Made by a program: the position numbers and the translations under genes. Below are positions 5,819-18,033 of a DNA stretch of 64,000 nt, piece by piece. Numbering within the stretch: position 1 is the first letter of the stretch; every line of letters starts with the position of its first letter. Source of the DNA: Prevotella sp. (GTDB taxonomy: Bacteria; Bacteroidota; Bacteroidia; Bacteroidales; Bacteroidaceae); contig JAFZIY010000007.1 of the NCBI GenBank assembly GCA_017554105.1, positions 1 to 64,000 of the forward strand. The letters run 5' to 3'. Under the pieces are notes generated by a model, which was not told the DNA's origin, made no database searches, and saw only the letters and a program-made list of their open reading frames with translations.

Positions 5819-7348
5819 TTATTTTGGAAGATATACATTCCAACTTATACAATGTAAAGCGCCACCTTCTTTTGCAATTTCTGCCATTTCTATTTGACGG
5901 ATACAGCAATCGGGGAATGCTTCTTGAATGTATTGTTGAGCTATTGCATCTTCTTCAATGTTGAATTTAGGCATTATGATGTTTTTGCCAACTTGAAGAA
6001 AGTTGATATATGCCCAGTTGAGATCATAACAAGGTTTATCAACGTTGCCCTTGAAACGCATTTCTGTAACTTCAAAGCCGTAACTATCAAGAATCCGACG
6101 GATGGATGCTGCTTCTTCAGGATAGCAATCGCCATGATTACCCATCAGTATTCGATTATCGCCACACCATTTGATGAATCCATCCGAATGTCCATACACA
6201 TCATCTTCATGCGGAGTCCAAGGAATAATGATAACAGGATGCCCAATTTCAGATTCCAGCAAAACCTTGAAATCTGTATCTCCTTTCTCACGTCCATTTT
6301 CCATAAATACTTTATCAGTCATCACAATATATGGACCGCATGGTACCATATTACCACCATCTATGATGAGGTCAGTCGAACGACAACTAATCCCCATACC
6401 TCGTAACACTTTGGTAGCATCAGTAATTGTCTCAATATCTTTTTTATTATTGCTCCTCACAAGATAATCAGGATAATAGCGATATTTCAAGAACTCATTT
6501 TCTCCCAATTGAATCGGCATATAATCGCGATCCCAATAATCATTTGTCGATTTCAGTTCTTTGGGCTCAATTCCCATTTCATTAAGCACATCCTTCAGAC
6601 GCTTATAAAACTCTGGATGTCCTTCTTTATTGTCTTTTAACCAAGGAGAGAAATACACGAGGTTTGTATCTTTATCGTGCATTAATGTATCACAACGCAC
6701 ATATCTATAACGTCTATCCACAAATCTCGAAAAATTACTATATAGACATTTCCTTTCAGAAACTTCATGATATTCTTCAAGAATATAATCAACCTTACCC
6801 TCTACTGTTTGTTTGGATGTAAGTAGATTGATACGAGGTTCACGAATATAGCCCACCATACCATTATCATGCTCCAAAAGAACAGGAAATTCATTGTCGA
6901 CACCAGTAGCATCATAGCACCTAAACAATTCAGCACAAGCCCATGGTCCATTTAGAACTTCACAACCATCTTCACTTATTAGTTGACGAATGAGGATGCC
7001 ACCAAAATATGCACTATCATCGAGAACATACTTTTCAACACTCTTTCCTTTACTGTTAGCTCTAGACTCACGCTTAATATTACTGGCAAAATTTAAATCA
7101 ATCCCTCCAAAGTCATTTACGTACCAGCATAAAGATTTTGATGCTCGTGGATGAGTGATGATATCACGATGATTCTTGTTGTAGAAGTAAAATTCAATCT
7201 CCTTAAAAAGATACTTCTTCTCACCCTTTTGGATAGCAAAACTTTCAAACAGCATCTTTGCTATTTGTTCAAAACGCTCTTCGATGTTAGATGTATTCAT
7301 GTTGGCATCAAGAGTCATCCATTTACGTAGTTGTTCTGTATTGTTCAT
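5819..7348 (-). CDS. Fusion of an unrecognised N-terminal domain to an agmatine-deiminase/PAD-like domain
   Basis: 509 residues, last gene of the defence cluster, 44 bp after the KAP gene. The C-terminal half (about 225-509) has the guanidino-modifying-enzyme signature of agmatine deiminases and bacterial PADs: DYWDRDYMP (270-278), IDGGNM (329-334), GHSDG (386-390) and GGALHC ending in the nucleophile-position Cys500. All predicted catalytic positions are kept, so it is probably an active hydrolase or transferase on a guanidino group. The N-terminal ~200 residues (FGGIDLNFAS, YFGGILIRQL, GPWACAELF) form a separate domain I cannot name; a distant glycosylase-like fold is a guess. Free agmatine deiminases are about 350 residues, so this is a true fusion. 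The substrate is unknown. Confidence 0.7.
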   Translation of the reverse strand: MNNTEQLRKWMTLDANMNTSNIEERFEQIAKMLFESFAIQKGEKKYLFKEIEFYFYNKNHRDIITHPRASKSLCWYVNDFGGIDLNFASNIKRESRANSKGKSVEKYVLDDSAYFGGILIRQLISEDGCEVLNGPWACAELFRCYDATGVDNEFPVLLEHDNGMVGYIREPRINLLTSKQTVEGKVDYILEEYHEVSERKCLYSNFSRFVDRRYRYVRCDTLMHDKDTNLVYFSPWLKDNKEGHPEFYKRLKDVLNEMGIEPKELKSTNDYWDRDYMPIQLGENEFLKYRYYPDYLVRSNNKKDIETITDATKVLRGMGISCRSTDLIIDGGNMVPCGPYIVMTDKVFMENGREKGDTDFKVLLESEIGHPVIIIPWTPHEDDVYGHSDGFIKWCGDNRILMGNHGDCYPEEAASIRRILDSYGFEVTEMRFKGNVDKPCYDLNWAYINFLQVGKNIIMPKFNIEEDAIAQQYIQEAFPDCCIRQIEMAEIAKEGGALHCISWNVYLPK

Positions 7349-7392: not shown

Positions 7393-10110
7393 CTATTCAT
7401 AATCACTCAAAATCTTCAGCTTCTTTTCTATCGTTCTCTTTAAACGACCATTTAATGATATATATAGATTAATATCGTCTAACTCATTTTTGTTGTTTAT
7501 CAATAATTGTTTGTATTTTGCTTTTTCTTCATCTGAAGCAGAGTCTATTATTTCAGGAATTTGTGAAACCTTATCTTCAATATGCTTCATTATTTCAAGT
7601 TTACGGACTTCTTCAACAAGATTGTTATCTATTTTTTCTTGAACAGGTCCTTGATTCTCATAAGAAATTGGCTCAAATTCATTGGCTTTATACAATTGCC
7701 AGAAATTCCACACCAAATCAGACTTCTCAATCCTATTGTCTTTACATTCACTCAAGAAATTCTCAAATACGGGTTCATTTCCAAATATCTGGCGCCAGAA
7801 TGGCTCACATGCCACAGAATTCCATTCTGGATCTGACGAAACCATTCCTAGACGAACAAATGTTTTTATGTAATAATGTGGATTTTCCTCCACTCTTTTT
7901 CTGTAGGCATCAATACATCCTTTATCTAAATACAATTTTCTTGATGTTTCTTCCATATTATCAACACATCGATACAACCAATTAAGAATATCATCTTCAG
8001 TAGCAGAAGTTTTTTTCGTTGTTTGAATAAACTTTTCTTTAATAAAAGGCCATATATCATCGTCTTTTATAAGCTCTTCATTCTCTTGTAGCTTCAATGT
8101 CTTATATTCATAATGAATATTTGTAATCAACGTTAATTTCACATCTCCATTTTTTACAATATCAAGTAAACGATTCTTATAAGCATCAAGATTTAAATCA
8201 TACTTTTTATCATACCCTTTCAATTTCTCATTAGAAATAATCCTTAGGAATAACCAATATGCTCGCGAATTAGGCAGTTTACATGCTAAATATGCTACCA
8301 TTTCAGCATATCGCCAAAAAGTCTTATTAGAAAAATAGTCCATGTTACGACTATCCAGATAATCTATGAAATCTCTTGAATTATCATCACTATCAACCCA
8401 TTTGTCTATTGTGCTTGTCACATCATCCCATTCACACCAAAATAGAGCCTGCATATCCCTAATACGCAATGAAGAATAGATCTGGTTTACAAAGTAGTTA
8501 TCAAAACTTTGTATATCACAAATATGTTTATAAGTATTTCTAACAGCATTATTATCTTTCGGGAATAGTAGTTTCAAAATGGGAAGTATTTTTGTATTAT
8601 CATCTATTTCATCATTTAAATACCATATATTCATACTACTATAAAGTAAAGATTTCCTCCCAATATACTCCTTTTTATACAAAGATCTATATAGTTCAGG
8701 ATACCGATATTTTATTAACTTAACTAATAAAAATTCATCTATTATAACATCTCCTTTCACCTGCTTAAAATCAAGCACGAACTGATTAATAAAACGTTTC
8801 GCATCTCTGAGAGTTGGTATGTACTCTTCAAATAATGAACTTCTATTCGTTATAGTTTGCTGAATATCCTTTTTCTCACTTTCGTTTGCATGTAAAAACT
8901 TGCATAATTTATCTTCGATGTATCTTGATATGTAAGAATATGGACGAGAAGGTATAGAAAATTCTAAATTGAAGAATTTGTCAACGAAACAAGCATTTTC
9001 CGTCATAAAAGATTCACCTAATGATTTATTTACTTGTTCTTTATCATAAGCAGTTAAAAACACCATGTTTGTGAATGCAGCATTACTATCTATCAATTTT
9101 AGCACTTCAAGAATCTCATCCTTAGATAATCTATCAAAGTCATCTATTAGAACCAAAACTTTTTTGTTAAGAGAAGCAAATGAGCGCTTGATAGAATCTT
9201 TCAGACTATCTTTATTCCAAATGTGATAGAAATTAAGAGTTTTTTCAACCAAGTCTCGATTATCAATTAACTGAAGTGAGGCCATATAATCCTTCAAGGT
9301 ATTATTGCATCTTGAATCGTATTTAGATAACACACACGCAATAGATGTTAAAAAATCCTCTTGGATAGTTTTAAATGATTTACTATCTCGAGGGATAAAA
9401 TGCACAACCTCAAATTCTCTTTCGCTGATGTGTTCTAATATTAGATTTAGAAAAGAAGTCTTTCCTGTTCCCCATGGAGCCGTAATAGCCAAACTCCAAG
9501 TTTTCTTTCTATCAAGATCTTTTATCTTTTCAGCTAGTTTTACAGCTTCATCTTCAAGATCGAAAATATCTTCTTCCTTACACTCTATCGGCCAATCATT
9601 TAATATAGAATCCTTTGAGTTAGCAGTTTTTCCTTCTTTATTATTGCATAATTTATATAACATCCTGAATTTGTTCACTATTGCAGCGACAGCATGTGCG
9701 ATACAAAAAACGATTATAACATCTACATATGAAATAGACCATATCCAATTAATATAGTCATAATCTCCACTTAATCGACAATAAACCAAAACTGCAGACA
9801 CAAAGAATAATATCAATACTATTCTTTTATCATACTGATAACGCATTTTAACCCTTCTTATGATATCATATATAGCAACAATACACAATATAAAAGTGAG
9901 CAATCCAAGCCAAATATTTGATATAAAATAGCCAAGAATTGGCATAATATTATCATCATACCAAGCCATAAATTGAGTTTTATAAGTAACTAAAGCATAA
10001 GAAATCGCCAAACATAGGAGTAGATAACTAATCAAAGCATGTTCGTTAGCCCACACTAAAGTTTTTGACAGCTTTTCTTTATTTATAAAACGACTAATTC
10101 TATTCATCAT
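7393..10110 (-). CDS. Membrane-anchored KAP-family P-loop NTPase
   Basis: 905 residues. Four predicted membrane helices (about 26-43, 56-82, 96-111, 126-145) precede a cytoplasmic KAP NTPase domain with Walker A APWGTGKTS (211-219) and Walker B VLVLIDDFDR (318-327). The long C-terminal region is helical and has no motif I know. KAP NTPases with membrane inserts recur in phage-defence loci, where they are thought to act as signalling or effector platforms. The ATG at 10110 overlaps the abiEii stop by 11 bp; a second ATG at 10107 gives the tighter ATGAATAG overlap. Strongly AT-rich. Confidence 0.85.
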   Translation of the reverse strand: MMNRISRFINKEKLSKTLVWANEHALISYLLLCLAISYALVTYKTQFMAWYDDNIMPILGYFISNIWLGLLTFILCIVAIYDIIRRVKMRYQYDKRIVLILFFVSAVLVYCRLSGDYDYINWIWSISYVDVIIVFCIAHAVAAIVNKFRMLYKLCNNKEGKTANSKDSILNDWPIECKEEDIFDLEDEAVKLAEKIKDLDRKKTWSLAITAPWGTGKTSFLNLILEHISEREFEVVHFIPRDSKSFKTIQEDFLTSIACVLSKYDSRCNNTLKDYMASLQLIDNRDLVEKTLNFYHIWNKDSLKDSIKRSFASLNKKVLVLIDDFDRLSKDEILEVLKLIDSNAAFTNMVFLTAYDKEQVNKSLGESFMTENACFVDKFFNLEFSIPSRPYSYISRYIEDKLCKFLHANESEKKDIQQTITNRSSLFEEYIPTLRDAKRFINQFVLDFKQVKGDVIIDEFLLVKLIKYRYPELYRSLYKKEYIGRKSLLYSSMNIWYLNDEIDDNTKILPILKLLFPKDNNAVRNTYKHICDIQSFDNYFVNQIYSSLRIRDMQALFWCEWDDVTSTIDKWVDSDDNSRDFIDYLDSRNMDYFSNKTFWRYAEMVAYLACKLPNSRAYWLFLRIISNEKLKGYDKKYDLNLDAYKNRLLDIVKNGDVKLTLITNIHYEYKTLKLQENEELIKDDDIWPFIKEKFIQTTKKTSATEDDILNWLYRCVDNMEETSRKLYLDKGCIDAYRKRVEENPHYYIKTFVRLGMVSSDPEWNSVACEPFWRQIFGNEPVFENFLSECKDNRIEKSDLVWNFWQLYKANEFEPISYENQGPVQEKIDNNLVEEVRKLEIMKHIEDKVSQIPEIIDSASDEEKAKYKQLLINNKNELDDINLYISLNGRLKRTIEKKLKILSDYE

Positions 10111-11041
10111 ATACCGTTTTGTTTTCAGAATTAATAAACAAGTTGTATAACTTCTTCGCTTCCTCTTGCAACTTCTGCGGATTCTGCTTGGCGAGCTTCT
10201 TTAAATTAAGCAACTTCCATTGTACTGATGGATATTCTTTGAAGTATTCAAATTCGTATCCATCCCACTCTGGCTGACCTGATTCGAAACTAATCAGGAA
10301 CTTCTTATCCGCTTCTGTCATCAAAGATTTGACTTCAGAAATGAGTTTGGCACGAGTCGCTTCAAACTCTTCGTATGAAAAAGGAATATCAGTCATACCA
10401 GAGAACTGGTTTTCCATTGCTTCTCGCTGGTCAATTAGGCGTGGAGCAAATGACTCATGAATCGGTCTGTCGCTACCAAGTAAGCAGAAGACAAGTCCCT
10501 CGCGGGAATCGCCCAAAGGAATATCCATATACTTTACATCAAACAGATCACGAGGATGTTGGCGTGAAAGTGCTGCTGCAATTTTGCCACCATACAATTG
10601 AGTTAGGGGCACGACATTTGCCTCACAAAAGAGAGAAAACTCTTCCTGAGCCTTCTCGCTCAATGGTAAAGATTGAACAGCACCGCCCACGATACCTCTC
10701 TTGGTTTGATTGACCTCTATCTTCACCTGCTTGCCTCGATACTCGCACAACAGCTTGCAGGTATTGAAATTGGGTACAACATGCATTCCTTTGAAAGCTT
10801 TCTTTGCCTTATCTGCAATGGTTTTTAGATGCAAATTGATGTCATCCAAACTTGTCTGACGGTCAGCCAACGGGATATAGGTCAAATCAATATCTACAGA
10901 ATAACGTGGCAAATCTTTCAAGAAAAGATTGATGGCAGTACCTCCATGTATTGCAAACACATGCTCTTCCATCACTATCGGAATAAGACGTAGTAGCAGT
11001 TCTACTTTCTGAGCGTAAACACTTGATCTTATATCATTCAT
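10100..11041 (-). CDS. AbiEii-type nucleotidyltransferase toxin
   Basis: About 313 residues. HGGTAINLF (about 32-40) and RYSVDIDLTY (about 46-55) form the nucleotidyltransferase core of the AbiEii/AbiGii family, toxins that modify tRNA ends or act through nucleotide transfer and cause abortive infection. Later motifs (YGGKIAAALSRQHPRDLFD) fit the family. A frame reaches back to a TTG at 11050, but the ATG at 11041 overlaps the TGA of a leftover abiEi 3' end (ATGAATGA), so translation was once coupled to that antitoxin gene. The present partner abiEi lies 3.6 kb upstream, beyond two DUF262 genes. Confidence 0.85.
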   Translation of the reverse strand: MNDIRSSVYAQKVELLLRLIPIVMEEHVFAIHGGTAINLFLKDLPRYSVDIDLTYIPLADRQTSLDDINLHLKTIADKAKKAFKGMHVVPNFNTCKLLCEYRGKQVKIEVNQTKRGIVGGAVQSLPLSEKAQEEFSLFCEANVVPLTQLYGGKIAAALSRQHPRDLFDVKYMDIPLGDSREGLVFCLLGSDRPIHESFAPRLIDQREAMENQFSGMTDIPFSYEEFEATRAKLISEVKSLMTEADKKFLISFESGQPEWDGYEFEYFKEYPSVQWKLLNLKKLAKQNPQKLQEEAKKLYNLFINSENKTVYDE

Positions 11042-11099
11042 ATTCTGCAAGTTCTTTGAATAATAAACCTTTTATACACTTCTTGTTACCGAGATTAAT
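11034..11099 (-). pseudogene. 3' remnant of an abiEi gene directly upstream of abiEii
   Basis: In one frame these 66 bases read INLGNKKC, then KGLLFKELAEYE and a stop. The intact AbiEi upstream contains INLGTSRF and ends in SKELAEYE. The shared INLG start and KELAEYE end show that the leftover is the C-terminal coding tail of an AbiEi, with an internal deletion. Its stop overlaps the abiEii start, the natural abiEi-abiEii junction. It also overlaps the stop of the DUF262 gene by three bases. Confidence 0.7.
11036..11057. repeat. 22-bp direct repeat, copy at the abiEii start
   Basis: The strand read in the gene direction includes GCAGAATATGAAT and 9 more upstream bases. It matches 14640-14661 at 21 of 22 positions. 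In both copies it spans the end of abiEi coding sequence and the ATG of the next gene. Confidence 0.75.
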
Positions 11100-13131
11100 A
11101 GTTCATAATAATCTCGAGCATTTTCTCTTGATGTTGAACCATATCTTCGACATTCCATTCTAAACCAAATAGACGCTTAATATTTTTGTTCTTAATTCCT
11201 GCATCGTAATTATCCTGACATATCTGTAGCATAATTCGGAACTTTAAAGAAGCTACACTCACTGGGTTTGACTTTGTATCAAGATAGCGATTCTTTTTAT
11301 CAATTGGATTCCAATTCGAACCAGAACTATTTGCATCAGACCCTATCATGGCAAAATTGCCAAAGCAATTTATATCTTGCGTACTAATTGGCATATCATC
11401 ACCAGCCTTGGCTTGTGGATAATAATGTTCCAAACTTTTTCTAGTTCGTGAGAAATAGAAGTTATTGAAAACATCTAACTCAAAGTCACTACAACCCAAT
11501 GCTTTGAAAAAGTCTATTCTATTACGAGAGTCCTTCTTTGCTTTGTTTCCACGAAGTTCCTCTGCATATTTCTTCCAAATTTTATAATCCGTATAGTTAA
11601 ATACGTAAAGAGGTATATTGCATGAACCAATAGAATAAATACTATCAAAATCTCGCTCAACATCTTCTAATTCAACGTTTAGTTCACTTCCATTAAGAAT
11701 AGTATCATCAAAACTATTAGGTTTGGGCTGATTCATATCATTGAGTTTGCTCGCATCAAGATACACATCGAAGAAATATTTATCTGCCAGTTTTCTTAAG
11801 AACTCCACATAGTTATCAAGGTCACAATCCTCGAACAAATGGTATAAACAATAGAACAGATAGTTCTTTCTTTGTTTGGGTGTGAAAGCGACTTCAAACA
11901 TGGAAAGTAATTGGATTACTTCGTTTTGTTGTGCTTTTCTATCCTCATACAAATCCTTTAGATAAGCAGCCTTATTACCTTTCTTATAATAATATTGCAA
12001 CTTCCAGGGATTCTCTAAGACTCTGTCTTCTCCATTTGCATGATGAATCACATAATTATCAAGAAAATATTTAGCCAAGAGGAGATTGTATGCAAAGTCC
12101 TTAACGAACTCTGGGGTAAGATTTACCTTCTCGAACTCCTTAATGAGTTCTTTATCGTCAAGCGTAAAACTCAAAGGATCGAAATCATCTTCATTCCACG
12201 ACCTTGTAATTTTCAAGACAATCAATAGAAAATTCGGAAAGTCTATTATCGGTTGGAAATGATCGTTATTGTCAAATTCTCCATATTTATCTATCATTCT
12301 TATAGGTGAATATAAAAGTTCTGAAATAGTTTTCATACCTAATGACGAAGATGAGCCTACATTAGAACTAGGGAACTCATCGAAAGACTCTATAACAAAA
12401 TCTTCCATAGTTTTACCAAAGACATTTATATCAGGAAGTTTCTGTTGAATATAGAAACCCATGTCGCTACAAGCCTCCCATATACGACTAAACTTCTGCA
12501 TCGCGTCGTCATCACCTGTTAATTGATTGCTGAGTTTAGCTTTTATTATCTCATGCTTTTCTAACTGCTCACCACGAGAGTTCATAACCTCAAAATAGTG
12601 ATTTAAATCCACATCTTTCGGCACACGATAGTGAATGATATGTACCTTGTTCAAGAAAAAATCCTGGAATGCTTCCATGTCAGCCTTCTTTTCGCCAACA
12701 ATGTCTTTGAGTGCTTCCTTTGCATAATTGAATCCGTCAACAATACCCTGATCTTTTTCTTCACTAAACTTAGGCATTTTCTCTATTGTCGTAGCAGAAA
12801 TCTTTCTTGCAGAATAAGTAAGATGGTTTCCAATCGTTTCAATACCCAAAGCCTTCAAGATAATGTAAATTGTTGTCAGACGCTGTTGACCATCAATAAC
12901 TTCATAGATATTCTCGTCACGTTTGTATGTGACAAGAGTACCGATATAGTAAACTGACTTCGTCATCGAATCATATACATCATTTATCAAAGCACGTATT
13001 TCTTCACGTTCCCAAGCATAATTACGCTGATAGATAGGTATTTTGTATAAGATAGATGTCCCTCTGTTCGAGAAATAGATGTCGTTAATCGAACATTCTT
13101 CAAGAATAGTTTTCAAATCTTTCATAGCCAT
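11095..13131 (-). CDS. DUF262 protein with DUF1524 (HNH-like) C-terminus
   Basis: 678 residues. The N-terminal DUF262 domain has IPIYQRNYAW (31-40), YIGTLV (about 62-67) and VIDGQQRLTT (78-87), the ParB-like nucleotide-binding/hydrolysis signature shared with GmrS and BREX/Type IV proteins. FEVMNSRGEQL follows. Near the C-terminus LEHYYPQ, then NCFGNFAMIG and NSSGSNWNPIDKK, match DUF1524, the His-Me finger nuclease domain of GmrD. This is therefore a single-chain GmrSD-like protein, likely an NTP-dependent nuclease against modified DNA. It starts 2 bp after the preceding DUF262 gene, so the two are translated together. Confidence 0.85.
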   Translation of the reverse strand: MAMKDLKTILEECSINDIYFSNRGTSILYKIPIYQRNYAWEREEIRALINDVYDSMTKSVYYIGTLVTYKRDENIYEVIDGQQRLTTIYIILKALGIETIGNHLTYSARKISATTIEKMPKFSEEKDQGIVDGFNYAKEALKDIVGEKKADMEAFQDFFLNKVHIIHYRVPKDVDLNHYFEVMNSRGEQLEKHEIIKAKLSNQLTGDDDAMQKFSRIWEACSDMGFYIQQKLPDINVFGKTMEDFVIESFDEFPSSNVGSSSSLGMKTISELLYSPIRMIDKYGEFDNNDHFQPIIDFPNFLLIVLKITRSWNEDDFDPLSFTLDDKELIKEFEKVNLTPEFVKDFAYNLLLAKYFLDNYVIHHANGEDRVLENPWKLQYYYKKGNKAAYLKDLYEDRKAQQNEVIQLLSMFEVAFTPKQRKNYLFYCLYHLFEDCDLDNYVEFLRKLADKYFFDVYLDASKLNDMNQPKPNSFDDTILNGSELNVELEDVERDFDSIYSIGSCNIPLYVFNYTDYKIWKKYAEELRGNKAKKDSRNRIDFFKALGCSDFELDVFNNFYFSRTRKSLEHYYPQAKAGDDMPISTQDINCFGNFAMIGSDANSSGSNWNPIDKKNRYLDTKSNPVSVASLKFRIMLQICQDNYDAGIKNKNIKRLFGLEWNVEDMVQHQEKMLEIIMNY

Positions 13132-13133
13132 TA

Positions 13134-14645
13134 TTATTTATAGAAACCATTTAATTGGAAGAAATACAGATAGTTTTTATACACACCATCTTTTTCATCC
13201 TTAAGATTCTTCAATATTTCACCATTGCCACTATACTCACAGCATTCCTGCGCCCAACCATCTTTAATGTCCTCATTAGAAAGCGGATTAAGTTTATCTG
13301 CCAAAGCACTTAGTAAAGAGGCTGGCGTATCTTGTTTAGCAATCAGCTTATACATATTGAATGTATTAATTTTATCACTCCACCCCATAATATAATTCTG
13401 TGCAGAAAGCCAGCCGAGGTTAGTGTATTGCGCTCTCAATGAATAAGCCCATATAAACGCATATATAACAAATTGTTCAAATAGTTCCATATCTTCTTTC
13501 GTCGGATATGTTTCTGGACAAAATCTATCAACATAAAGTAGAACAGAGGTATCAAACATCAGACGTGCTATGCCATTACCTATACCTTTTTTGAAATATC
13601 GATCCAGAGTTTTAACTATAATATTATCGTTGATATAGAACCCCTCATACTTATTGTTGTTCTGTATATCCTTGAGTATATTATAGTAGTGTTTTGTATA
13701 TTCAAAGAATGGCTTGCCTGCAATTATTGGTGTGTTCAGCTGGAACGCATTTACATTTCGAGTTCCCGAAACAAAAGGCATAGCAGAAGAGTTAACCATG
13801 TCAGCATAGCAATAGGCACTCTTATAGAATTGGGCATAAGGTGTCCTTGCAGAACGTGTAATACCTTTGAACATCTGGATATTATGCTCATTTAAGACAT
13901 TGGCTTTGTTGCCACTTACCCACTCTTTAATACGATATAGATAATTACCAAAGAAATCGGCTAAACCACTTTGTGAGACCTGTTCCCAATCCTTTACCAT
14001 CTTTTCTGTTTCTTCATCACTAATGTCATTCATTTCACGAAGATGGTACGCTTTCAGTAAATCATGAGGGTAAAGAGCCTTACCTCGAGCATTTTGAGAA
14101 TCAAAGAATTGGAACGCTTCTGATACATCGGAGGTTATCACAACTATCAACTCACACCTATTCTCAATGTACTCCTTAAGACGTTCCATTTCTCGTTGAT
14201 GTTCTATAGCTGACTCGCTTTCCTCAGATTTTAATCCAACCCTTCGGTAAAGTGCATTATAATTGTTTGCAATGTTATGGTTATTGTGTTCATTATCATA
14301 TATCTTCTGTTGCAAGAACTCTATACCTTTTTCTCCTAATGCTGTTAGAAGAAGTGAGAAAGTTATTGTTCGTTGCTGACCATCAACAATATCATATAGG
14401 TTCTTACCCTTTGCTTTATGAAGGATAAGTGTGCCGACTCTGTATCTTTCTTTGTTGCTATTCTTTGCATCAATAATATCATCAAGCAATTGAATGGCAT
14501 TACGAGCAGTCCATTTGTATGGACGTTGATAAATAGGCACACACAATTTTACGCCTTTGATTGGCTCCCCGTTATCCGTTATAGTTATGGTTTGACGAAG
14601 GAGTAAATCACCTATAGTAGTTATTGATAACGTCAAATTATTCAT
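13134..14645 (-). CDS. DUF262 protein without a nuclease domain
   Basis: 503 residues. DUF262 motifs are clear: VPIYQRPYKW (36-45), VGTLIL (70-75), IVDGQQRTIT (86-95) and FDSQNARGKAL. The C-terminal third shows no H-x-x-P or other DUF1524 signature, unlike its downstream neighbour, so it is more like GmrS alone and may act as a partner or sensor. The ATG at 14645 overlaps the abiEi stop (ATGAATAA), placing it exactly where abiEii would start in an ordinary abiE pair. Confidence 0.8.
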   Translation of the reverse strand: MNNLTLSITTIGDLLLRQTITITDNGEPIKGVKLCVPIYQRPYKWTARNAIQLLDDIIDAKNSNKERYRVGTLILHKAKGKNLYDIVDGQQRTITFSLLLTALGEKGIEFLQQKIYDNEHNNHNIANNYNALYRRVGLKSEESESAIEHQREMERLKEYIENRCELIVVITSDVSEAFQFFDSQNARGKALYPHDLLKAYHLREMNDISDEETEKMVKDWEQVSQSGLADFFGNYLYRIKEWVSGNKANVLNEHNIQMFKGITRSARTPYAQFYKSAYCYADMVNSSAMPFVSGTRNVNAFQLNTPIIAGKPFFEYTKHYYNILKDIQNNNKYEGFYINDNIIVKTLDRYFKKGIGNGIARLMFDTSVLLYVDRFCPETYPTKEDMELFEQFVIYAFIWAYSLRAQYTNLGWLSAQNYIMGWSDKINTFNMYKLIAKQDTPASLLSALADKLNPLSNEDIKDGWAQECCEYSGNGEILKNLKDEKDGVYKNYLYFFQLNGFYK

Positions 14646-15399
14646 ATTCTGCTAGTTCTTTAGATATTGTCATATTATACTTATTGATGTACTTTCCTGT
14701 TAGAGTAATCATAAACCTAGATGTGCCAAGATTAATATTCTCCAGTTTCAAAGCCTTATACCAGGCGTGGCCAGCCTTTTCTGCCATATATAAGAACAGT
14801 CGTTTCACTTTCTGTGACGTGCAAGCCTCCAGTAATGTCTGAACCAATTTGGGACGCAATGTTGTCAAACCTTCCATGATATAATAGATATCGAGCAAAG
14901 AAGAAGAGGCATCTGGCAAGTTCAGACACTCCAATATGGCACGCTCTGGAGATGACACTAGCAAATCATGCTGATTGATAGTCATAGTTTCTACACCCAA
15001 CAGTTCATCACCCAAGAAAGAGGTAGTCATGTATTTTATCGTCATATCCCACTCCTCTTTTAGTAACCACAAAGGTAACTTATTGCTTTTGTCTGTAAAC
15101 AAATAAGCCTTAGGCTTCCCCATTGACAGGTAATGGGAGTATCCTCGAAGTTCCAATGCCGTATATGCACCTACATTGCAACTCTTGATAAGTTGCGTGT
15201 TGTATGACGATATAGCAGCAAATAGACTTGGTTCTGTTCCATGTATCTTATAAACCCCCTTCGATATACGGTCAAGCCATCCGCTTTTCATATAAGCATA
15301 CTGACCACGAGCATCCAATCCCTGACTTGAAAGCCACGAACCGAACAAGACCGATTCATTGGGCGCCGTCTCTAATATCTGCTGTATTTTTGTAGCCAT
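14638..15399 (-). CDS. AbiEi-type antitoxin/transcriptional repressor
   Basis: 253 residues. N-terminal winged-helix-like segment with GWLDRISKGVYKI (about 41-53), followed by AYTALELRGYSHYL and SSPERAILECL, features of AbiEi antitoxins that repress their own operon and neutralize the AbiEii nucleotidyltransferase. First gene of the six-gene cluster, preceded by a consensus promoter at 15437-15468. The gene ends in KELAEYE, overlapping the DUF262 start. Because two genes separate it from abiEii, whether it still neutralizes that toxin is open. Confidence 0.8.
   Translation of the reverse strand: MATKIQQILETAPNESVLFGSWLSSQGLDARGQYAYMKSGWLDRISKGVYKIHGTEPSLFAAISSYNTQLIKSCNVGAYTALELRGYSHYLSMGKPKAYLFTDKSNKLPLWLLKEEWDMTIKYMTTSFLGDELLGVETMTINQHDLLVSSPERAILECLNLPDASSSLLDIYYIMEGLTTLRPKLVQTLLEACTSQKVKRLFLYMAEKAGHAWYKALKLENINLGTSRFMITLTGKYINKYNMTISKELAEYE
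14640..14661. repeat. 22-bp direct repeat, copy at the abiEi/DUF262 junction
   Basis: Partner of 11036-11057 with one mismatch (GCTAGTT instead of GCAAGTT on the plus strand). The two copies bracket the DUF262 pair, 3.6 kb apart. Confidence 0.75.
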
Positions 15400-15436
15400 C
15401 TTCGTTTATTTTATGAATACCAGCCTAAATTTGTTG

Positions 15437-15468
15437 CAAAAATAGCTTTTTTATTTTGTTCAACCAAA
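15437..15468 (-). promoter_or_regulatory. Promoter of the abiEi-DUF262-abiEii-KAP cluster
   Basis: On the minus strand TTTG (15465-15468), 20 bp, TATTTTTG (15437-15444); transcription would start about 30 bp before the abiEi ATG. It is the only near-consensus promoter seen upstream of the six genes, which are otherwise tightly packed or overlapping. Confidence 0.7.
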
Positions 15469-15624
15469 AATTTTCCTCAAATAATGGCTATTTTTATAGA
15501 AATTTATTCTCAAATTCATATTTTTATCGAATTTAAGAGTAAAAAACGTGCAAAAACTATAAACAGAGATACAATTGCCATCAAAAGAAAAAGAGGTCGA
15601 TAGCCAGGATCAATTTCTGAGCTT

Positions 15625-15670
15625 GGTTTAGTTTAATCCCATATTAAATATCTATAACCTAAACTAAACC
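15625..15670. repeat. Perfect 11-bp inverted repeat with 24-bp spacer
   Basis: GGTTTAGTTTA (15625-15635) and TAAACTAAACC (15660-15670). No T-run follows, so it looks more like a protein-binding or recombinase site than a terminator. Confidence 0.55.
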
Positions 15671-15736
15671 TTAATGCAAGAATGTGCAAAAATCTTCGTT
15701 AAAAAGTGTAAACGTGCAAAGAACTGGAAAATCGAT

Positions 15737-15925
15737 TTTGCAGATGTTTGCATTTTCTTTTTTTGACGGCAGTCATATTTGCAGATTTTTGCCTATTTTA
15801 CGTCCCCCCACCGTCCCTCGGAGTCACTTTAGATACCCTAAAACAAAGGCGTTTGTGCTGATTATCAGCCACTTATATTTGCAGATAGTAGCTTCTGCAT
15901 CGGAAAGTAGATTCTGCGTGGGAAA
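15737..15925. repeat. Right copy of att-like motif cluster
   Basis: TTTGCAGAT at 15737-15745, 15778-15786 and 15878-15886 and CTGCGTGGGAAA at 15914-15925, matching the cluster at 5589-5723. A 17-bp stretch around 15875-15891 (ATATTTGCAGATAGTA) recurs in inverse orientation near 5623-5639. Confidence 0.45.
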
Positions 15926-15970
15926 ATAGTTTATATGGCAATACTTTAGGGTGTTGTTTATACATAAATA

Positions 15971-16024
15971 TAAAAGTAAAAGCGTCAGTACCAATAATAA
16001 ATGGTGCGGACGCTTTTACTTTTA
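15971..16024 (-). terminator. Terminator of the beta-helix protein gene
   Basis: AAAAGTAAAAGCGTC (from 15972) pairs with GACGCTTTTACTTTT (16009-16023), a long stem with a 22-base loop, just after the stop at 16042 on the minus strand. Confidence 0.65.
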
Positions 16025-16041
16025 CTCTTATAGATAGGAAC

Positions 16042-18033
16042 TTAGAAACCACCTGGGCCCCACCCACCGCTATAGTTGCTAAGCGTTACTGATGAACCAC
16101 CGCTGACCGTACCGCCAATGTTACCCATGCCTCCAAAATACTCTGTGCCGCCGTTTACGGTGACGCCAGTTTTCAGAGCAGGCGTAGACGAGGTGTAGAC
16201 AACGAGTTGCTGACTACCGCCGCCGGGACCACCACCAGGACCACCACCGCCAGGGCCGCCTCCAGAAGACGACTTGGTGGGTGTCTGGAAGGCTAATGCG
16301 AGATTGCTGCCGTTATAAAGAGCATACCAACTATTGCCCGTCCACGACGATGTATACTTGCATGTTCCGCCAGATATGCTAGCACCCGACTCCAGTCCGC
16401 CAATGGCTATTATCGTGCCGCCTGTTATATAAAGTTTCTTCTGCTCCTCGCTATTAGCATCGATGGCCACCTCCGGTGTGTTCGCGCCGATGGCATATAC
16501 CACGCCACCATTGATATAGCAGTTGCCGTTGGCATCAATACCGTCGTTGTTGGAGGAACGGGCATAGACATATCCGCTGCTGATGGTCAGATTCTGAGCC
16601 GCATTGATACCATCGTCGTAACTATTGACGATAATGTGACCACCCGTGATATTCAGGTAGCTCTTGCTCTCTATTCCCTCGCCGTTGCGTCCGCTTGTGG
16701 TAACGCTCACGGTACCGCCACTGATAACCAATCCTCCCGAGTAGGTATAGTTGGAACCAATCTGCGTTTTCACGCCCGCCTTGATGCCCTTTGGCGAAGA
16801 ATAGTAGTTGCTGTTCACGTTGTCGGTATTGCCAGTGTAGTTGGTATTCTCCGTCGTACCATTATTATAATATAGTCCGCCACTTGTCACTACGGTAACG
16901 GTACCGTCACTGATGGTCATCACACCGTCGCACTTCATGCCTTTACCACCAGAACCTGTGGAAGTCAGATTAAGAGTACCGCCGCTGATATTCATATTTC
17001 CGTCACAACTCAGTCCGCAAGCCGCCTTCGTTTCCAGGTCTTCACTGTCCCACATGCCTTTGCCTGTAGTCTTCACGGTGATGTCGCCACCCGAGATATT
17101 CATGTCACCGTCACCTTTGATACCCTTGGCGGCTATAGCGGTACAGGTGATATTGATGACACCTCCGCTGATGTAGATGTTACCACTATCCTCATCCTCA
17201 TGGTCGGTGGTCTCACCGGTAGAGCTGTCGCCATCTATTTCGCATGAGATGCCGTCGTCACCCGTTCCGCTGATATTTATAGTACCACTCTCCATGAGGA
17301 AGTACTCATTGCACGAGATGCCATCACCTACTGCACCAAGCACGTTGATGACGGCATTCTTCAGCGTAATATACTCACCCGCTTTGATTCCGTGCTTCAC
17401 GTTGCCAGTAACGTTGAGCGTACCTTTTTGGGCAAACTCAGCATGGCCCTTCACATAAAGACACCCCTTCTGCGAACCACCGGCAGCATCTGTCAGTGTG
17501 TTGACAGTACCCGTTACCACCTTTACCTTGATACGCTTGCTATTCTGTACATGTACGGCAGCACCGCTAAATACGGGTGTAGCATTTGTAAGCGTCAGTC
17601 CGTTCAGTTCTATGGTAGACTTGTACGAGCCCGAAGTGTAGAACTCTCCATCGGTGGAAGAACCGCTGAGGTTATAGGTAATCTCCTCAGCCACATCGCC
17701 ACTCTGCTCTATTGAGACGTGTGCTCCGCTGACGGTTGGAGTGACATACTGTGCGATGTTACCTGCTACGGTCACTTTCGCTGACGTGCCTTCATAGACC
17801 ACACCGATGGTTCCATCGGTCACCTCCGTATCGTCTATCGTCATGTTACTGATGTCGTTCAACGTAAAAACCTTGTTCAGTATGGTCAGAGTCGTACCGT
17901 CCTGATAGATCATATCACCACACTGTGAGGCAGGGAACTGATATGTCACGCTGCCCACCTGCACATTAAGCGTCTGTGCCCCAGCTACAATCGTCAGCAC
18001 GAGGGCGGCAATTATCGTTGTCAATTTCTTCAT
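16042..18033 (-). CDS. Secreted carbohydrate-binding beta-helix protein (Cthe_2159/DUF4353-like)
   Basis: 663 residues with an N-terminal signal peptide (MKKLTTIIAALVLTIVAGAQ). The body is a chain of short parallel beta-helix repeats such as GTINISGTGDDGISC and GDITVKTTGKGM, the pattern of the Cthe_2159-type carbohydrate-binding domain. A glycine/proline-rich linker (GGGPGGGGPGGGPGGG, about residues 598-616) precedes a final beta-rich segment. It probably binds plant or microbial polysaccharide at or outside the outer membrane. The start overlaps the stop of the preceding small secreted-protein gene by 4 bp, so the two form an operon. Confidence 0.75.
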   Translation of the reverse strand: MKKLTTIIAALVLTIVAGAQTLNVQVGSVTYQFPASQCGDMIYQDGTTLTILNKVFTLNDISNMTIDDTEVTDGTIGVVYEGTSAKVTVAGNIAQYVTPTVSGAHVSIEQSGDVAEEITYNLSGSSTDGEFYTSGSYKSTIELNGLTLTNATPVFSGAAVHVQNSKRIKVKVVTGTVNTLTDAAGGSQKGCLYVKGHAEFAQKGTLNVTGNVKHGIKAGEYITLKNAVINVLGAVGDGISCNEYFLMESGTINISGTGDDGISCEIDGDSSTGETTDHEDEDSGNIYISGGVINITCTAIAAKGIKGDGDMNISGGDITVKTTGKGMWDSEDLETKAACGLSCDGNMNISGGTLNLTSTGSGGKGMKCDGVMTISDGTVTVVTSGGLYYNNGTTENTNYTGNTDNVNSNYYSSPKGIKAGVKTQIGSNYTYSGGLVISGGTVSVTTSGRNGEGIESKSYLNITGGHIIVNSYDDGINAAQNLTISSGYVYARSSNNDGIDANGNCYINGGVVYAIGANTPEVAIDANSEEQKKLYITGGTIIAIGGLESGASISGGTCKYTSSWTGNSWYALYNGSNLALAFQTPTKSSSGGGPGGGGPGGGPGGGSQQLVVYTSSTPALKTGVTVNGGTEYFGGMGNIGGTVSGGSSVTLSNYSGGWGPGGF

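Follow-up and report, generated by a model that had tools for sequence, protein, structure and literature searches.

A DUF262 gene pair inserted between abiEi and abiEii in Prevotella and exchanged among related abiE loci

In a 64,000-nucleotide (nt) stretch of Prevotella sp. DNA (contig JAFZIY010000007.1, positions 1-64,000, assembly GCA_017554105.1; hereafter the window), the two genes of an AbiE toxin–antitoxin (TA) system are separated by a pair of DUF262 genes, DUF262a and DUF262b. Open reading frames (ORFs) of the window and profile searches gave the minus-strand order abiEi, DUF262a, DUF262b, abiEii and a KAP ATPase gene (Table 1), and the order of the first four genes, as read in the initial annotation, was thereby borne out by the ORFs, Pfam and PADLOC. 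The abiEi gene overlaps DUF262a by 8 nt, and 2 nt separate DUF262a from DUF262b. At the right-hand joint of the window there is no overlap, the abiEii ATG lying 53 nt past the DUF262b stop codon, and the last 11 nt of abiEii also belong to the KAP gene, a feature missed in the initial annotation. NCBIfam supplied no name for any of the five operon proteins. Comparison with related loci showed that the DUF262 pair is an insertion and a derived state, that the end of abiEi is duplicated around it, and that the insert has taken part in mosaic exchange between loci.

The proteins of the window were mapped on 55 related abiEii loci, obtained by scanning genome contigs with AbiEii. Insert-free pairs were found in other genomes: abiEi adjoins abiEii in 46 of the 55 loci, with an estimated overlap of 2–20 nt in 45 of them and about 55 nt between the genes in L107. 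At the empty joints examined (25 of the 46), the abiEi stop codon overlaps the abiEii ATG, mostly as ATGAATGA. The DUF262 pair or its end lies between abiEi and abiEii in five loci (L063, L065 and L100, plus L086 and L093, both partial), and the upstream side was unreadable in four (L062, L083, L092, L114). The empty set includes relatives at 58–63% identity and two Chitinophagales loci at 48–50% identity. Since the most distant readable relatives are empty, the adjoining pair is older and the insertion of the DUF262 pair is derived; these relatives do not fit an ancient arrangement in which the pair always stands between abiEi and abiEii.

The two joints carry traces of the event. A 22-base-pair (bp) direct repeat with exactly one mismatch, as first reported in the initial annotation, links the end of abiEi and the start of DUF262a with the end of the insert and the start of abiEii; in its extended form it covers 30 nt at 87% identity. 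It was the sole such direct pair within positions 9500–16500, and none of 100 Markov-resampled sequences contained any. On the left, the abiEi end ...GAATATGAAT passes directly into DUF262a in the window, L063, L065 and L100, and the joint falls at the same ATGAAT in all four of these readable cases; DUF262a also starts with ATGAAT in some free-standing relatives (L116, L145, L146). At the right-hand joint of L100 and L093, an undoubted abiEi tail of about 70 bp precedes abiEii and encodes ...KYINKYNMT(I/V)SKELAEYE. There, the DUF262b stop codon overlaps the ATG of a 24-codon mini-ORF made of the abiEi end, and the mini-ORF stop codon overlaps the abiEii ATG. Occupied relatives thus show the repeated abiEi end along with the gene order. 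The window, L063, L065 and L086 have in common a shorter right-hand segment, in which only the last 20–30 nt are recognisable as abiEi end. Within the set of fetched loci, exact copies of a 30-nt piece of this junction were confined to those of the window itself, L086 and the L086 duplicates L142 and L154; L063 and L065 have one change each.

In the initial annotation, the whole segment from INLG to KELAEYE was taken for a second abiEi-like tail, and this reading holds for its last 20–30 nt. The 39 nt upstream of the repeat core aligned locally to four abiEi tails and the L100 and L093 remnants no better than 127–333 of 1000 shuffles did, and end-to-end comparison of the junction segment with three references was equalled by 284–592 of 2000 shuffles; the origin of the INLG part from an abiEi tail is, on these alignments, not proven, the similarity of the first 39–42 nt of the segment being no better than chance. 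Translational coupling, proposed for both joints, likewise held in part: it is present on the left as the 8-nt overlap, and the 53-nt gap of the window speaks against it on the right, where coupling is seen only indirectly through the mini-ORF of L100 and L093.

Table 1. Features of the abiE operon and its surroundings in the window.
Feature	Coordinates	Strand	Basis
abiEi, complete antitoxin/winged helix-turn-helix repressor gene, 253 amino acids (aa)	14638..15399	-	Pfam AbiEi_3 2.3e-47, AbiEi_3_N 2.8e-21; PADLOC AbiEi 2.3e-76
DUF262a, 503 aa, GmrSD_N and DUF7834	13134..14645	-	Pfam, motifs
DUF262b, 678 aa, GmrSD_N and C-terminal GmrSD_C/DUF1524-like (His-Me) nuclease region	11095..13131	-	Pfam, motifs
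Junction segment DUF262b–abiEii, 53 nt; last 20–30 nt a copy of the abiEi 3′ end, remainder of unproven origin	11042..11094	-	
abiEii nucleotidyltransferase toxin, 313 aa, motifs I–IV recognisable	10100..11041	-	Pfam, PADLOC
KAP-family NTPase, 905 aa, PifA-like in PADLOC; second, downstream cargo position	7393..10110	-	
Candidate Bacteroidota-type operon promoter: TTTGG (15468-15464) and TATTTTTG (15444-15437)	15437..15468	-	
Inverted repeat AAATTC-N11-GAATTT, candidate AbiEi operator	15512..15534	.	
22-bp repeat, left copy (abiEi 3′ end and DUF262a ATG)	14640..14661	-	
22-bp repeat, right copy (abiEi end spanning the abiEii ATG)	11036..11057	-	

Exchange of the insert between loci was apparent from sliding and per-gene comparisons with the window as reference. 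L065 differs from the window at 58 of 754 positions in abiEi (7.7%), 7 of 1512 in DUF262a (0.5%), 7 of 2037 in DUF262b (0.3%), 1 of 53 in the junction and 110 of 912 in abiEii (12.1%). The corresponding values for L063 are 59/754 (7.8%), 72/1506 (4.8%), 10/2037 (0.5%), 1/53 and 117/912 (12.8%); of its 72 DUF262a mismatches, 57 fall in the first 384 nt, 11 in a single run at 13935-13925, which may be an alignment artefact, and 4 elsewhere. In L086, where only the end of DUF262b is present, the differences amount to 4/602 (0.7%) in DUF262b, 0/53 in the junction and 113/906 (12.5%) in abiEii. DNA identity of the window to L063 and L065 is therefore 99.5–99.7% in DUF262b, 92% in abiEi and 87–88% in abiEii, and the near-identical tract starts inside abiEi (L065) or DUF262a (L063) and reaches no further than ~125 nt into abiEii. 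L100 differs from the window by 10–15% in each of the four genes. In a tree built from 24 abiEii genes after removal of the 150 nt at their 5′ ends (6 occupied rows and 18 empty rows selected from the 46), with many forks unresolved, the 6 occupied rows required 6 changes; all 500 shuffles were as low, so that the occupied rows do not cluster, and L086 was paired with an empty row at 100/99. The sharp mosaic boundaries, together with occupied abiEii genes scattered among empty ones, indicate that the cassette was exchanged by homologous recombination in the flanking genes and, as judged from these comparisons, has spread by this route into different abiEii lineages.

The outer genes are recognisable AbiE components. 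AbiEi matched both AbiEi_3 and AbiEi_3_N above cut-off, and AbiEii contains the DUF1814 motifs as GGT...DID with a spacing of x15 (I/II), KIAAALSR (III) and RDLFD (IV). The published motifs are hGGx15DhD (I/II), III and +DxxD (IV), and the aromatic residue that belongs to motif III as published is missing from KIAAALSR (PMC3985639). AbiE is described as a type IV TA system in which Streptococcus AbiEi acts as a repressor of its own promoter, and AbiEii as a bacteriostatic toxin that binds GTP (PMC3985639); the window likewise combines an AbiEi_3 family repressor/antitoxin with a DUF1814 nucleotidyltransferase carrying motifs I–IV. AbiE genes are, by that description, usually bicistronic with a short overlap (PMC3985639), whereas those of the window lie 3.6 kb apart and do not adjoin. 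No solved structure matched AbiEii by sequence at an E value of 1.

Both proteins encoded by the inserted pair contain GmrSD_N and the motifs QR, DGQQR and FxxxN. Pfam detected no nuclease domain in DUF262a. The GmrSD_C match of DUF262b (2.1e-4, 21.6 bits) is slightly below the curated cut-off of 23, and H569 and N592/N601 fit, by pattern, the H..N..N nuclease motif of DUF1524; a search against sequences of solved structures returned one weak match for DUF262b (9jfl_B, 1.1e-8). The architecture is that described for TgvA in the case of DUF262a and for TgvB in that of DUF262b. TgvAB and GrwAB of Vibrio cholerae are reported to be two-gene GmrSD-like DUF262 type IV restriction systems in which both proteins and the His-Me nuclease are required against phages with modified DNA (PMC11411939, PMC12137116). 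TgvAB sits within a type I restriction-modification (R-M) cluster, and homologues were reported from Bacteroides fragilis (PMC11411939). TgvAB resembles the window pair in consisting of two adjacent genes with N-terminal DUF262 domains (QR, DGQQR, FxxxN), one with a C-terminal DUF1524, and H569/N601 of DUF262b stand beside H571/N602, the residues mutated in TgvB. Both pairs are embedded, TgvAB in a type I R-M operon and the window pair in an AbiE operon of Bacteroidales. Unlike TgvAB, the first window protein has a DUF7834 C-terminus, and the likeness drawn here is to the published description. By analogy with TgvAB, the window pair would sense modified phage DNA and cut it. The single-chain arrangement of GmrSD/BrxU, with one fused DUF262-DUF1524 protein, is not what the locus shows, as a second DUF262 gene adjoins in the window and in all 18 fetched loci in which both genes were matched.

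The explanation that we favour, with a rough probability of 0.8 for the whole of it, is that a TgvAB-like module was captured once into abiE, spread by recombination in the flanking genes and is run by AbiEi. A free-standing two-gene module of TgvAB architecture would have been captured between abiEi and abiEii, the left joint forming at the common start sequence ATGAAT and DUF262b being joined on the right ~70 bp before the end of the resident abiEi, which would leave a copy of the abiEi tail before abiEii. The arrangement so formed would have spread among Bacteroidales by homologous recombination in flanking genes, and in the window lineage the right-hand remnant would have been eroded or replaced down to 20–30 bp. 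In the working state, one transcript from the abiEi promoter would carry all genes, AbiEi would repress the restriction genes, the toxin and the KAP gene together, the DUF262 pair would restrict phage DNA with modified bases, and AbiEi/AbiEii would act as a second-line TA system and possibly as an addiction anchor. Homology-facilitated illegitimate recombination is known from work on natural transformation; a homologous crossover in abiEi combined with a non-homologous joint would yield exactly a partial duplicated tail, and the joints described above suggest such a process here. The initial proposal that abiEi-linked DUF262 genes entered an existing abiEi–abiEii pair by homology is well supported by the empty sites, the L100 and L093 remnants and the mosaic boundaries.

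The pair was also found elsewhere. Close relatives of DUF262b were present in 6 of 399 genomes of the family (E ≤ 1e-80) and 14 of 398 of the genus (E ≤ 1e-60), both counts including the window's own genome, and flank reading identified the DUF262 pair as free-standing at 14 other fetched places (L115, L116, L128, L129, L144-L153). At L116 it lies behind a DUF6088 gene with a weak AbiEi_4 match below cut-off; among the 12 of the 14 free-standing pairs viewed by eye only this one was suggestive, and no preference for AbiEi-like regulators is claimed. At L143, a second AbiEi_1/AbiEii-type system (L143:3812-6169) is cut short, and its shortened abiEii is fused to about the last 115 nt of abiEi immediately before the DUF262 pair, with neither a complete abiEi nor an abiEii of the window type at the locus. 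From this arrangement, the pair is apparently able to leave the slot with a piece of abiEi and to outlive it. The gene after the L143 pair is presumably nrdG-like. Upstream of DUF262a in L145 and L146 is a 425-aa ORF that we take to resemble the DUF1016/YhcG nuclease family, itself preceded by an integrase-like ORF. In L149, the free pair lies 28 nt from an apparent mnmE (named by eye). Viral contigs gave one candidate stretch for DUF262b and none confirmed, in a single-protein query limited to close relatives; DUF262a had no match at E 1e-5 in 50,697 phage records; and 990 plasmid records contained only distant DUF262 relatives of DUF262b, all below 60% identity. Hence no phage or plasmid carrier of the cassette was found in these searches.

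Upstream of abiEi, a candidate promoter was recognised using what we take to be the Bacteroidota-type consensus. Of 24 upstream regions, 20 contain the TAnnTTTG block, the exceptions being L063, L065, L081 and L085, and 11 contain the inverted repeat in exact form, including the window, L065 and L100 and excluding L063. From this sequence arrangement, a TA-controlled operon carrying the restriction genes, the toxin and the KAP gene together is likely, and control would be exerted by AbiEi. The insertion ends the overlap of abiEii with abiEi and moves abiEii 3.6 kb down the message, and may thereby change the AbiEi:AbiEii ratio. The suggestion that loss of the cassette could expose the toxin was not supported: the complete abiEi lies upstream, outside the cassette, so that precise loss would restore abiEi–abiEii with the antitoxin kept, and the empty arrangement is also what recombination between the two tail copies should regenerate.

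The gene directly after abiEii, compared in 30 loci of which only some are annotated, differs strongly by locus and is sometimes defence-like. The window has a KAP gene at this place, as does L093, where it is broken into two pieces. L061 has a gene for a REase-ARP protein there, with relatives in L065, L075 and L109, and L063 has one for a DUF3800 protein, with a relative in L068. The gene encodes TmtA in L086 (PADLOC 1.2e-220), a DUF6155 protein in L080 and, in L085, an AAA/STAND protein that matches Avs2 weakly. L073 carries a set of two DUF262 genes, with relatives in L076, L078 and L079, at a distance of ~190-215 nt, and in several loci the gene is without any match. In 18 of the 30 loci the following gene overlaps abiEii or begins no more than 55 nt past its end; in the others it is further away or on the other strand. 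An mnmE gene, the family being named from L075, is nearby in 12 of 29 loci, and in 11 of the 29 it is a downstream gene of opposite orientation whose 3′ end points towards abiE (L062, L063, L065, L067, L072, L075, L077, L083, L086, L093, L100). In the window's own genome, mnmE is at a contig end with its 3′ end outward (G000:C1:2-1345). These neighbourhoods suggest a defence hotspot beside mnmE with abiE as its stable part. Further along the window, positions 5819-7348 encode a relative of Porphyromonas-type peptidyl-arginine deiminase, found downstream of abiE in 7 of 29 loci including the window and split in several, and positions 688-2025, near the contig end and downstream of the operon, encode a 445-aa protein that we take to resemble a Mob/Pre relaxase and that had no Pfam match.

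Several observations weigh against the favoured explanation. Most occupied loci come from metagenome assemblies. The abiEii gene is interrupted in two of the six occupied loci (L086 and L093), so the toxin is not always kept; interrupted or partial abiEii also occurs among empty or unplaced loci (for example L005, L012/L120, L092 and L113), and the cases are too few for a conclusion on toxin decay. The promoter motif of L063 and L065 is off by one base in length and L063 is without the inverted repeat, which weakens the case for a conserved AbiEi operator. The DUF262a tree, with weak support (82/81), puts L100 with free-standing relatives and requires two changes. Finally, the window remnant above the 22-bp core is not statistically an abiEi tail, so that two separate right-hand joints are possible.

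Two side observations concern individual loci. In L086 (L086:3-1758), the DUF262b match does not begin before codon 479, abiEii is divided between two frames, and beside the DUF262b end lies an ORF that matches a DDE transposase weakly (21.7 bits against a cut-off of 23). In L118 and L119 (G164:C1, ~2.68 Mb and ~2.59 Mb), two parts of an abiEii are found on opposite strands at a distance of ~92 kb, and a 1052-aa open frame contains the larger of them; this split is a probable rearrangement or inversion.

The most serious rival, to which we give a substantial though less than even chance, bears on the working state: the locus would have arisen passively in a crowded defence hotspot next to mnmE, and abiE would be tied to its cargo neither by regulation nor by addiction. 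The recurrence of mnmE, the 14 places with DUF262 pairs and no abiE, the L143 pair deprived of its abiE partners, the two interrupted toxin genes and the loose conservation of promoter and inverted repeat in L063 are all in keeping with such a hotspot, which would not account for a cassette placed exactly at the abiEi/abiEii overlap with the 8-nt overlap kept, for the overlap-linked mini-ORF of L100 and L093, or for the tight spacing between abiEii and the gene that follows it in most of the loci compared.

That the same pair was captured in the same slot on two or more independent occasions, the window-type and the L100/L093-type right-hand joints being separate events, seems to us less likely than not. 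The right-hand segments do differ in length and sequence, that of the window is not significantly alignable to the L100/L093 remnant, and the grouping of L100 DUF262a with free-standing copies points the same way, if weakly. All six copies in the abiE slot, however, end DUF262b with TTATGAAC, the junction following directly, unlike L143 and the free copies L144-L146, which read ATGAAT at that place; this common end favours one original capture, with two captures possible. The identical left joint at ATGAAT in every readable case and the DUF262b tree, in which the embedded copies form one side of a branch (76/91), argue in the same direction.

A transposon-like insertion, in which the DUF262 pair would be a mobile element duplicating its target on entry, was already disfavoured and is very improbable: direct repeats do flank the insert, but their lengths vary from ~22-30 bp in the window to ~70 bp in L100/L093 with no fixed short length, the cassette contains no transposase or integrase gene, no pair at the cassette ends was seen among the 25 of 42 inverted pairs listed, and the free-standing copies lie in unrelated contexts with 5′ and 3′ ends of their own. 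Least probable of all is an ancestral split order from which adjoining abiEi–abiEii pairs arose by deletion between the repeats, since, although such a deletion could yield an empty-looking site, the sites are empty down to relatives at 48–50% identity, DUF262b is far more alike than its flanks, as fits a recent gain, and the 55 loci include no deep-branching abiE clade whose members all carry diverged DUF262 pairs.

Comparable nestings have been described. Embedded defence systems found through 'guilt by embedding' (HEC/PDC candidates) likewise place one defence module between the genes of another (PMC12988326), and DarTG2 within type I R-M (PMC12255303) is the reverse nesting, since in the window the outer unit is the TA system and the inner one the restriction module. 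What distinguishes the window from these cases is that traces of the joining event can be read in it (PMC12988326, PMC12255303). Our literature search, which covered titles and the beginnings of abstracts with preprints and most subscription journals outside its scope, found no description of restriction genes between abiEi and abiEii.

Nesting of defence genes in the operons of other defence systems is known, for example from type I R-M and Hma loci, but the route of entry is seldom visible. The window case falls within this theme: a predicted restriction module has become embedded in an AbiE operon, and the embedding is derived and spreads horizontally. Here the empty sites, occupied sites, duplicated gene tail and mosaic boundaries together make the entry and spread of a module traceable base by base. 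A tentative and rather doubtful generalisation is that Bacteroidales abiE is a docking platform, with the antitoxin/toxin junction and the 3′ end as two slots for immunity genes, in which recombination in abiE would swap the cargo, AbiEi would be the common repressor and AbiEii would make loss of the unit costly. If the cargo is under AbiEi control, abiE would not only act in stand-alone abortive infection but also carry and regulate other immunity genes.

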